Below are positions 21,140-32,133 of a DNA stretch of 32,133 nt, piece by piece. The DNA comes from Candidatus Yanofskyibacteriota bacterium (lineage in GTDB: Bacteria; Patescibacteriota; Minisyncoccia; Minisyncoccales; UBA10102). The position numbers and the translations under genes were made by a program. Each line of letters begins with the position of its first letter. Position 1 is the first letter of the stretch. Location of the stretch: assembly GCA_030688685.1 (NCBI GenBank), contig JAUYJF010000048.1, positions 1-32,133 on the forward strand, read 5' to 3'. A model generated the notes under the pieces. That model was not told where the DNA came from. It searched no databases and saw only the letters and a program-made list of their open reading frames with translations.

Positions 21140-21955
21140 TTACTGGGGTGTAATCCGGTGAGCTTCAAGGCGCTGAGTCCAATACCGTCCACAGTTTCCT
21201 GCCGCCTCCACCACAATAGAATGATCCCCTTCCTCTGCGCCATACACATGGGCAAAGGAACCCCCAAAGCTCCAGACCGCACCAAGCTCTGACGAGCGTG
21301 TCGGGAAATAAACTCTGGTGCTCACTTTCTGCTCCCCGTCAAAAAGAATCCTCACGGTTACATACGGTCCCCCTAAAGGTCCCTCTTGAGAACCACAGCC
21401 GCTTACAATGAACCCGTTCCATGAGATGGCAAAGTCCGCGGTTTCCCCCGCAGGCACATTCACTGTCTGGCCTATGATCTGCGTATATGATTGGGTTCCC
21501 CAAATGGCTCCTTGAGGCACATTTACCGAGGTCGCGATATTGGCTTCTCCCTCTGATTCAGAATCCATATTGTCCGTGGATTGCGCGCGCGAAAGAAGGT
21601 TTTCAGCCCCCAGGTTTTTCCAGCCAGCTCCATTACACCCATAAAACGCGTTATCTTCAGCATTAAAATACATTGTTCCCTCAAGCGCTGTCTCGCACGC
21701 GCCAGGATGACCGAGAAGAGGCTCAAAAAACAGCGCGGTGTCAATTCCCAGGCTTCCCACGGTCAAAGCTCCCTCTTTTACCTGGTCTTCCTCCCCGGTG
21801 TTGAGAGGAGAAACAATATTTTCTTCTGGGGGATTTGCTGAAGGCGATTGAAAATTCGCGAACACGGTTACAGCAAATAGAGAGAGGAATCCTCCCGCGA
21901 CACCAAGAATAAAGAGGGCTTTATTTTTCTGTTTGAGGATCGTATTGTTTCCCAT
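21140..21955 (-). CDS. Anchored/secreted protein with MYF...FYxCNGxxW module and C-terminal beta-rich domain
   Basis: N-terminal TM, PLNTGEEDQVKEGALTVGSLGIDTALFFEPLLGHPGACETALEGTMYFNAEDNAFYGCNGAGWKNLGA. Start at 21955 or 21973. Confidence 0.7.
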   Translation of the reverse strand: MGNNTILKQKNKALFILGVAGGFLSLFAVTVFANFQSPSANPPEENIVSPLNTGEEDQVKEGALTVGSLGIDTALFFEPLLGHPGACETALEGTMYFNAEDNAFYGCNGAGWKNLGAENLLSRAQSTDNMDSESEGEANIATSVNVPQGAIWGTQSYTQIIGQTVNVPAGETADFAISWNGFIVSGCGSQEGPLGGPYVTVRILFDGEQKVSTRVYFPTRSSELGAVWSFGGSFAHVYGAEEGDHSIVVEAAGNCGRYWTQRLEAHRITPQ

Positions 21956-22198: not shown

Positions 22199-22516
22199 CT
22201 ATGGGGCTAAGCTTCTCCACGCTGTTCCATTGCACACATAAAAACGCTTCTCGTCTTTATCAAAATACATAATTCCAGCGCTGCATGCGGGCCGCGCGAG
22301 AGGTTCCATTCTGACTGTGCTTTCAGCTAAGAGAGCGTTCACCCATATGCCCCCTGCTTTTTCCTGGGAGGCTGCGTCTTCACGCAAGGGAACAATGATA
22401 CTGCCTTCTCCTGGGGGCGCCACGGCGGGAGGGGCAAACGCGGACGCAAACTGAGCAATCAACGGAAGCGCAAAGATAAGTGCCGCGGCCACGAAAGCAA
22501 AAACGCGAAAGCTCAT
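22199..22516 (-). CDS. Secreted protein with MYF...FYxCNGxxW module
   Basis: Signal peptide MSFRVFAFVAAALIFALPLIAQFASA; IIVPLREDAASQEKAGGIWVNALL...CSAGIMYFDKDEKRFYVCNGTAWRSLAP. Confidence 0.7.
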   Translation of the reverse strand: MSFRVFAFVAAALIFALPLIAQFASAFAPPAVAPPGEGSIIVPLREDAASQEKAGGIWVNALLAESTVRMEPLARPACSAGIMYFDKDEKRFYVCNGTAWRSLAP

Positions 22517-29007: not shown

Positions 29008-29706
29008 TCATTTTGCAATGTCTCCTTCCTCAAGCCGATAGTAGGAGTTTCCTTGCTCCATCTCTTCCAGCACGTGAGCAGCGGCTCCCGCGAGACGGGG
29101 AATCAGGAACATTGCCTTACCAAAACGCCAATCTAGTTTCAGCTCCAGCATGGCAGCTGCCATTGCCCCGTCTATATTGAGGGGCAGTTTCTTTCCTTTC
29201 CTCTGGGCGAGCTCTGTCTCAACTTCGTACGCAAGATCAAAGTATTTGCAGGAAAATCCAAGTTCTTTCGCTTTTTGACAGATAACAGCAGCTCGCGGAT
29301 CTTCATCTTTATATACCTTGTGCCCAAAGCCGGGAATAATCTTGTTTTCTTCCACGATTTCTTTCGCGCTCTTCCCTAACTGAAGAAGGCGCGCGCATTG
29401 TTCCGCGGCCCCTCCATGGTTTTCCCCAATAGACAAAGCACCCGCGGCCAAGGCAACATGCATTGGGTTTCCCGTGGAAGCTGAAACACGAGGCACAAAC
29501 ACAGAGGGAGATTCAACCCCATTCTCTGTCGCGGCGATAAGGACGGCCTCCAGAAGCTTTGCCTCATTTTCTTGGGGAAGATCTCCGCGCCAGAGCAAAA
29601 AGAGAACTTCCGCGAATGAGTGCTTGCGCATGAGATCCAGAATATCGTGGCCGCGAACCAGGTGTTTTCCGTCTTCCGTTTTGCTTATAGAGGTTTTAAA
29701 TTTCAT
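29008..29706 (-). CDS. Citrate synthase-like / citryl-CoA lyase-like protein
   Basis: GENHGGAAEQ, IPGFGHKVYKDEDPRA, LPLNIDGAMAAAM motifs (His, His, Asp retained). Confidence 0.85.
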   Translation of the reverse strand: MKFKTSISKTEDGKHLVRGHDILDLMRKHSFAEVLFLLWRGDLPQENEAKLLEAVLIAATENGVESPSVFVPRVSASTGNPMHVALAAGALSIGENHGGAAEQCARLLQLGKSAKEIVEENKIIPGFGHKVYKDEDPRAAVICQKAKELGFSCKYFDLAYEVETELAQRKGKKLPLNIDGAMAAAMLELKLDWRFGKAMFLIPRLAGAAAHVLEEMEQGNSYYRLEEGDIAK

Positions 29707-30608
29707 AGGGAAACATGCTCTTTTATGAGTGCTGGGATCTGATCCGCGGTGTCTGCGATCCACGCGCCAGCATCCTTGAGCGTCCGTATTTTTGAGGAAG
29801 CAGATCCCCTGCCTTTCTGCACAATCGCTCCCGCGTGCCCGAGCACAGTCTCCTGAGGAAGGGTTTCAGAAAACCTGCCCGCGATAACGGCAAACACCGG
29901 TTTTGTTATCTTCTTCTCCTGTATTGCGCCAGCTAACTGCTCTTCATACGTTCCTCCCACCTCTCCGAAGATCACGATTGCTTTTGTATCAGCGTCTTGT
30001 TCAAAGAGAAGGGCGATATCAACAAAGTCAGACCCAGCGAGAATGTCTCCTCCAATTCCCACAGCCGTACTCTGTCCCAATCCATTGTCTGTGAGAATGC
30101 GGGAAAGTTCAGCCGTCATGCCTCCTGACTTTGAAATAACCCCAACAGGTCCTTCAGAGAATACGCGCTTTGCCAGATCTCCTGACCCTATACTCCCTAT
30201 TTTCCCCTTTCCCGGGGAAAGGATCCCCACGGAGGAAGGACCTACCAGCCGCGTTCCTGTCATCTGAGCAAAGCGTATCATACGCGAGACAAAAGCGACA
30301 GGGATCTTTTCCGTAAACACATCCACGAGCGGAATGTTGTTCCCCATTGCCTCTAAAGCAGCGTCCGCGGCAAACGCGGAGGGAACGGTAATAAGAGTAG
30401 CGTTAATTTCAGGAAACGCTTCTTTTGCTTCCTTCACAGAGTTAAATACCGGCACCCCTTCTTCTGTAGCCATTCCTCCCTTGCCCGGGGTTACTCCCGC
30501 AACAACGCGAGTACCGTACGCGGCCATATCCTTTGCCGCCCGTGCCCCTTCTTTGCCGGTAATGCCTTGCACCAAGGCAACCGTGTTTTTATCAACGAGA
30601 ATTGCCAT
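29703..30608 (-). CDS. Succinyl-CoA synthetase alpha / ATP-citrate lyase SCS-alpha-like subunit
   Basis: VQGITGKEGARAAKDM, VGVISKSGGMTAELSRIL, VGIGGDILAGSDFVD, LGHAGAIVQKG phospho-His motif. Confidence 0.88.
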   Translation of the reverse strand: MAILVDKNTVALVQGITGKEGARAAKDMAAYGTRVVAGVTPGKGGMATEEGVPVFNSVKEAKEAFPEINATLITVPSAFAADAALEAMGNNIPLVDVFTEKIPVAFVSRMIRFAQMTGTRLVGPSSVGILSPGKGKIGSIGSGDLAKRVFSEGPVGVISKSGGMTAELSRILTDNGLGQSTAVGIGGDILAGSDFVDIALLFEQDADTKAIVIFGEVGGTYEEQLAGAIQEKKITKPVFAVIAGRFSETLPQETVLGHAGAIVQKGRGSASSKIRTLKDAGAWIADTADQIPALIKEHVSL

Positions 30609-31675: not shown

Positions 31676-31695
31676 AAAAAACCTCTACAAGTAAG

Positions 31696-31705
31696 CCCCC
31701 CCCCC
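31696..31705. repeat. Homopolymer C10 tract at the 5' end of the avd-like frame
   Basis: GTAAGCCCCCCCCCCAACGG read directly. Confidence 0.9.
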
Positions 31706-31722
31706 AACGGCTTCTGCCGCTC

Positions 31723-32073
31723 TTGGAGAAACTAAAGGGGGCGTATCTCTTGTGGTATGGCTACTACCAAACTTTGCCCAAACTCCATCGCCATTCTCTT
31801 GGACAAAGGATTGACACGCTGTTTGTTGAAATCATTGAAGCTGTCGCTTCGGCAAGCTTTCTTGTCCGTGAAGAAAAACATCCGTATATTCGCCTTGCCA
31901 TCAGAAAACTTGATACCTTAAAGGTACTCCTCATGGTGCTCTGGGAAACTAAATCCCTTGATAACAAAAAGTATATTGCTTTGTCTATAAAGATAGACGA
32001 AATCGGCAGAATGCTTGGCGGCTGGAGCGGCCAGCTACAAAAACAAAACTCTCCCGCCAAGGGAGAGGAATGA
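31723..32073 (+). CDS. avd: Avd-like four-helix-bundle DGR accessory protein (5' end uncertain)
   Basis: EKLKGAYLLWYGYYQTLPKLHRHSLGQRIDTLFVEIIEAVASASFLVREEKHPYIRLAIRKLDTLKVLLMVLWETKSLDNKKYIALSIKIDEIGRMLGGWSGQLQKQNSP; adjacent to a DGR RT. Only a TTG start is available in this frame. Confidence 0.8.
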   Translation: MEKLKGAYLLWYGYYQTLPKLHRHSLGQRIDTLFVEIIEAVASASFLVREEKHPYIRLAIRKLDTLKVLLMVLWETKSLDNKKYIALSIKIDEIGRMLGGWSGQLQKQNSPAKGEE

Positions 32074-32133
32074 AGAGAGTTGCAGGAACCGCAGCGGGGT
32101 TGTTGGAGTTGAAGTCGTTGTCAAGCCAGTTGT
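32074..32133 (-). repeat. Candidate DGR template repeat (TR), truncated by window edge
   Basis: Minus strand ACAACTGGCTTGACAACGACTTCAACTCCAACAACCCCGCTGCGGTTCCTGCAACTCTC reads N-W-L-D-N-D-F-N-S-N-N-P-A-A-V-P-A-T-L with 5 AAC codons and an A-poor GC-rich 3' end. Confidence 0.7.

Follow-up and report, generated by a model that had tools for sequence, protein, structure and literature searches.

At one end of the window, by which we mean the whole of contig C14 (32,133 bases), we found a DGR-type reverse transcriptase (RT) gene, an avd gene on the opposite strand and, directly behind avd, a short repeat that runs into the contig end at position 32133. The host is a Patescibacteria genome of 694 kb in 48 contigs, and this RT is the only RVT_1 match in it. 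DGR-type RTs carry [ILV]GxxxSQ in place of QGxxxSP together with YxDD, and both motifs were found in the protein (Table 1). The Avd protein matched PF22296 (bAvd) with 45.8 bits, above the cut-off of 40; it also matched NF033474 (DivGenRetAVD) at 2.6e-17, yet its 63 bits lie below the curated cut-off of 80. Counts of bAvd over the phylum were kept out of the DGR counts. The 47 nt between the divergent starts of avd and RT (31676-31722) contain ten consecutive C and a short inverted repeat (CGGC-TTCT-GCCG), and an avd promoter, if there is any, must lie within this interval or inside the RT gene. The gene flanking the DGR is of the CoA-binding or CoA-ligase kind. C14 encodes CoA-ligase and citrate-synthase parts, and contig C10 of the same genome encodes, in the same orientation, an ATP-grasp/citrate-binding subunit; together these look like pieces of a single ATP-citrate-lyase-type enzyme interrupted by the DGR, the C10 subunit being the probable partner of the flanking gene. 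Elsewhere in the window, a 70% direct repeat (21616-21679 and 22213-22276) lies in two neighbouring small membrane or secreted ORFs, which share a MYF..YxCNGxxWxxL motif and are probably paralogues.

Table 1. Features of the DGR and its flank in the window, with positions counted from its first base
Feature	Position	Strand	Remarks
CoA-binding / CoA-ligase gene (ATP-citrate-lyase or succinyl-CoA-synthetase type)	29703..30608	-	flanks the DGR
DGR-type reverse transcriptase, 334 aa	30671..31675	-	PF00078 (RVT_1) 1.1e-25; motifs LGNLTSQ, YADD
avd (accessory variability determinant)	~31723..32073	+	antisense to RT and TR; start uncertain (TTG 31723)
U-run TTTTGTTTTT after the hairpin	32039..32048	-	read in the sequence
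Terminator-like hairpin CTCTCCC-TTGGC-GGGAGAG	32049..32067	-	3' end of the TR RNA; antisense, within the last part of the avd coding sequence
Candidate P0 3' strand CTTCATT	32069..32075	-	complementary to AATGAAG in the C10 leader
Template repeat (TR), 3' part, cut 5' by the contig end	32080..32133	-	A-specific mismatches to VR1; beside the stop codon of avd, like the TRs of 62 relatives
IMH*, last 16 nt of the TR, GCTGCGGTTCCTGCAA	32095-32080	-	identical in VR1

The reverse complement of positions 32074-32133 reads ACAACTGGCTTGACAACGACTTCAACTCCAACAACCCCGCTGCGGTTCCTGCAACTCTCT. In the frame that starts at its third base, it gives the codons AAC TGG CTT GAC AAC GAC TTC AAC TCC AAC AAC CCC, followed by CCCCGCTGCGGTTCCTGC. 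The initial annotation had pointed to the five AACs in these twelve minus-strand codons and to the A-free stretch behind them, and had proposed a TR, rather than an already diversified variable repeat (VR), with an IMH-like 3' end. Both observations held: among the 64,194 frames of twelve codons in the whole window (both strands, all frames), only the one at 32074-32133 contains at least five AACs, and CCCCGCTGCGGTTCCTGC has no A.

With this end sequence as query, the host genome yielded two partner copies, each of them on contig C10. The first, VR1, lies at C10:495-551 on the minus strand and forms the C-terminus of an intact ORF of 193 aa (C10:493-1074, minus), in keeping with DGRs in general, whose VR lies within a target ORF and mostly at the 3' end of it. 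We ran the alignment with a candidate VR that had been recommended, and the results showed that, up to the IMH, the window copy and VR1 differ only at A of the window copy (4/4 mismatches, P=0.003). From the window copy to VR1, AAC changes to TAC, GGC and AGC, and two further A differences lie in the first three bases. Upstream of the IMH end, no A of C10:495-551 stands opposite a non-A of the window copy. Because the differences fall only at A of the window copy, we read this copy as the template and the one on C10 as the variable repeat. The 3' end also came out as anticipated: GCTGCGGTTCCTGCAA is identical in both copies, and is followed by the TR-type CT in one and the VR-type GT in the other, consistent with an IMH* in the TR and an IMH in VR1. 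The window copy thus ends in the TR-type GCAACTCTCTTCATT and VR1 in the VR-type GCAAGT; past the shared GCTGCGGTTCCTGCAA, the TR runs on as CTCTCTTCATT, and the target ORF as GTATCTAG.

The window copy can itself be translated (NWLDNDFNSNNPAAVPATLFIPL), like the C-termini of targets, which would suit a VR, with a target ORF ending here in diversified sequence and the TR lying elsewhere. We rejected this reading as very improbable: C10:495-551 ends an intact ORF and holds the substituted bases, whereas the window copy keeps its A's and has the TR-type end, the terminator-like hairpin and the place of a TR beside avd. The initial annotation had itself named the finding that would overturn it, namely a target ORF ending here with the unmutated A's in the partner; what we found is the reverse, and its choice of TR over VR stands. 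A chance AAC-rich stretch, or an ordinary coding end beside a retron- or DRT-like RT, deserves practically no credence; RT families do have motifs in common, and there were sub-threshold Drt and retron matches, but every one of these scores is far below its cut-off, and this reading is contradicted by the VR partner, the Avd and the TR synteny across related loci. The best explanation, which we hold with high confidence, is that positions 32074-32133 form the 3'-terminal part of a Patescibacterial DGR TR cut by an assembly gap.

The target protein had no Pfam or NCBIfam match. The AlphaFold2 model of a homologous target (pLDDT 55) was of too low quality to reveal the C-type lectin (or Ig) fold that DGR variable domains have, and Foldseek returned no PDB match for it at E<=0.001. 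For comparisons among related targets, only ORFs with a checked frame were used, since automatic picking took the wrong one in several (L054, for example). We found no second VR in the host genome. Adjoining the target gene, between the flanking metabolic genes, is an AbiEii-type nucleotidyltransferase gene (PF08843; C10 1221-1910, minus). Farther along C10 (3260-6619, minus) lies a glmS-like ORF of 1119 aa, in which an in-frame intein-like insertion after GIGHC appears to be present, as judged by eye.

We compared the locus with the best 80 related RT loci, mostly from Patescibacteria/Parcubacteria, with RT identities of up to 73%. The results showed that avd was present in 76 of the 80 loci, and in all 76 it lay antisense and head-to-head with RT. 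The order VR (+), TR (+), avd (-), RT (+) was found in 62 relatives. Their TR lies 357-530 nt downstream of the VR and usually ends 5-45 nt before the avd match. TR/VR mismatches in the relatives fell at A of the TR in 1055 of 1120 cases (94%), with A changed to G in 589, to T in 277 and to C in 189. Several of the relatives' contigs likewise break at or near the TR. Two loci with the same type of cassette (L083 and L013) are on contigs labelled Bacteroidetes and Spirochaetia, and it is possible that these are mis-binned Patescibacteria contigs or cases of horizontal transfer.

Directly 5' of every TR, we found a conserved structured leader of ~220 nt, which in the host genome occupies C10 140-367 on the minus strand. 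Its 3' part (111 nt) forms a three-way junction, with 97.8% of cells paired in 45 sequences; 19 of its 22 pairs are changed on both sides, and the covariation reached 0.745, compared with 0.300+-0.013 in shuffled alignments and at most 0.23 in slid ones. The ~110 nt further 5' hold two more hairpins. For the whole leader, 96.8% of cells are paired and 36 of 45 pairs are compensated, a level reached in 0 of 500 shuffles; its covariation of 0.744 compares with 0.300+-0.011 after shuffling and 0.13-0.19 after sliding, the collapse setting in already at one base. Short open frames do occur upstream of some TRs, as they might if the leader were merely a conserved protein-coding or DNA element with no RNA structure, but the 36 covarying pairs, the shuffles, the loss of signal on a one-base slide and the stop codons that precede the TR in the host genome make this explanation extremely unlikely.

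We built a covariance model, R1, from the 111-nt part of the leader. R1 found exactly one copy in the host genome, at C10:140-250 on the minus strand (111 bits), and one in almost every related locus where the contig extends far enough. Used alone in a scan of 384 Patescibacteria genomes, it was positive in 66. Among the 29 best R1 loci outside the host genome, an antisense avd adjoins in 26 and an RT in 25. Two strong leader matches (L112 and L126) have neither avd nor RT within ~1.5 kb, and may be either orphaned template RNAs or cassettes that have been disrupted. A search of Rfam 15 with C10:1-700 gave no match at E<=1, and six loci searched at the gathering threshold of Rfam gave nothing besides one tRNA. 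R1 had no significant match in five non-Patescibacterial DGRs (BPP-1, ANMV-1, BalMu-1, ACA1 and the crAss-like cr10_1).

The flanks of this RNA were also conserved. In 31 of 36 loci, a TATAAT-like -10 box lies upstream of the leader at an almost constant spacing, compared with 30% from shuffles; in the host genome it reads GTTATAATACG, directly before C10:367. In the 3' flank of the TR, a hairpin followed by a T-run is present in 58 of 62 relatives, compared with 8.8% of shuffles, and on this evidence we rejected, as the main form, a TR RNA that continues across avd (in antisense) and on into RT to give a spacer like that of BPP-1. In its 5' segment, AAAUGAAGA, the three-way-junction leader is complementary to the nucleotides right after IMH*, UCUUCAUUU, and the two would form a long-range helix that we call P0. 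Across 61 loci, the complementarity of own pairs was 988, compared with 818+-20 when permuted (0/2000). Under a stricter per-locus control, with 39 loci whose leader is not the consensus, the own flank paired better with its own leader than with the consensus leader in 24 and worse in 12. P0, which is not uniform across loci, and the promoter are well supported, though less firmly than the anatomy, the A-specific differences, the order, the leader covariation and the hairpin, which are directly observed.

In the host genome, the TR lies at an assembly gap, and no contig reads through it. The second partner on C10, U (C10:143 to 14, minus), is TR-like and unmutated and reaches the contig end; over 95 nt, it differs from VR1 at 13 sites, 12 of which are A in U, and stop codons lie upstream, with no ORF entering it. 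Where U overlaps the window copy (20 nt), two sites differ, and the overall identity is ~75%, with a poor fit over the last ~65 nt. Positions 1-75 of C10 read like another kind of TR/VR 3' end, NDFDDQNPAAISASIFMKTL, which includes the 12-nt palindrome TCTTCATGAAGA; for the source of this tail, we found no copy in IMG/VR and at most 81% identity among 247 genomes of the same order. In the closest relative (G225), the whole cassette is on one contig, and its leader resembles that of C10 at U, while the 3' end of its TR resembles that of the window. C10 and C14 are suggested to be neighbours because the subunits of the CoA enzyme are split between them and because this relative has both parts of the TR joined.

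The simplest reading is a single TR cut by the gap, with a C10 tail that is chimeric or allelic. Probably, the final ~65 nt of C10 come from a chimeric contig end or from the allele of another strain, and one TR takes its leader from C10 and its 3' half from C14. The single leader in the host genome, the single TR of the closest relative, flanking genes on C10 and C14 that look like one enzyme interrupted by the DGR, and a VR1 tail that agrees with that of the window copy and not with that of U all argue for it; against it, the C10 tail is plausible as the 3' end of a repeat and has no match above 81% identity elsewhere. We consider it unlikely that U and the window copy are instead tandem TRs for two VRs that differ in their 3' ends. 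Tandem copies would fit the two differing sites in the overlap, the unlike tails and the unmutated state of U, and a repeat at the gap would account for the assembly break, but the genome has one leader (and related loci have about one each), the closest relative joins a U-like leader to a window-like end in a single TR, and the host genome yielded no second VR.

With one TR spanning the gap, we propose the following cassette in RT orientation: a target gene with C-terminal VR1, the terminator of this gene, the -10 box, the leader, the TR, IMH*, the hairpin, avd on the opposite strand, and RT. The TR would be driven by its own promoter as a discrete RNA of ~400 nt. Its leader is predicted to fold into two hairpin domains and the three-way junction, flush with the 5' end of the TR, and P0 would pair the leader with the bases just past IMH*, putting the scaffold at the start of cDNA. 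The leader may hold the TR RNA to the RT-Avd complex. RT and Avd would copy the TR from IMH* towards the leader, which lies at the 5' boundary of the TR, with misincorporation opposite A; the cDNA would then replace VR1 up to the IMH, so that the C-terminus of the target is diversified. For assembly of the ribonucleoprotein, priming, homing and activity, the model draws on known DGRs.

The DGR of the Bordetella phage BPP-1 (mtd-VR / avd / TR / brt) has in common with this locus an RT with Avd, A-specific TR/VR differences, IMH and IMH*, and a C-terminal VR. In BPP-1, all parts are on one strand, avd abuts the 5' end of the TR, and a spacer of ~144 nt lies 3' of the TR; this spacer is structured, recruits bRT-Avd and primes cDNA (PMC12875486). 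In contrast, avd is antisense here, a long structure lies 5' of the TR, and 3' of it there is a short hairpin with a U-run. We considered a BPP-1-type DGR RNA and rejected it: the hairpin comes right after the TR, avd is antisense in 76 of 76 loci, and the leader is 5'. The archaeal DGRs of ANMV-1 and the DUSEL4 Nanoarchaeota resemble this locus in an A-biased TR/VR, IMH and IMH*, and an Avd-like ORF (PMC4372165), whereas in ANMV-1 the genes around RT are all on one strand and there is no R1 leader. The hairpins described for these archaeal DGRs sit at the VR/target side and not after the TR (PMC4372165).

The DGRs of Patescibacteria (CPR) have been described as 'DGR clade 2', which is cellular and mostly aquatic, with targets that lack recognisable domains (Roux et al. 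2021, PMC8144416). The locus agrees with this clade in host phylum, cellular genome, a target with no recognisable domain and an RT near other Patescibacterial RTs; phage DGR RTs reach at most ~37% identity to the window RT, and Patescibacterial ones up to 73%. None of the features compared sets the locus apart from these DGRs; it is a member of the Patescibacterial DGRs and, on RT identity, a candidate for clade 2. The TR is correctly identified and ordinary for the phylum, and a template RNA with its leader in front seems to be a novel variant. In the papers examined, we found no description of an inverted avd or of a covarying leader, and priority is uncertain. We see about an even chance that Patescibacterial DGRs form a distinct class of ribonucleoprotein, reversed with respect to BPP-1, in which an independently promoted and terminated non-coding RNA of ~400 nt carries a 5' leader, made of two hairpin domains and a three-way junction, that acts as a protein-binding and priming scaffold folded onto IMH* by a long-range helix.

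Patescibacteria retain DGRs although their genomes are among the smallest known, and the mechanism of these DGRs has so far been inferred from one phage. A covariation-supported template RNA with a putative promoter and terminator offers a minimal component that could be reconstituted and set beside the ribonucleoprotein of BPP-1, and R1 is a search model that locates cassettes with neither RT nor target. With these, one could ask by experiment whether the structured RNA has to lie behind the template or need only be brought next to IMH*.
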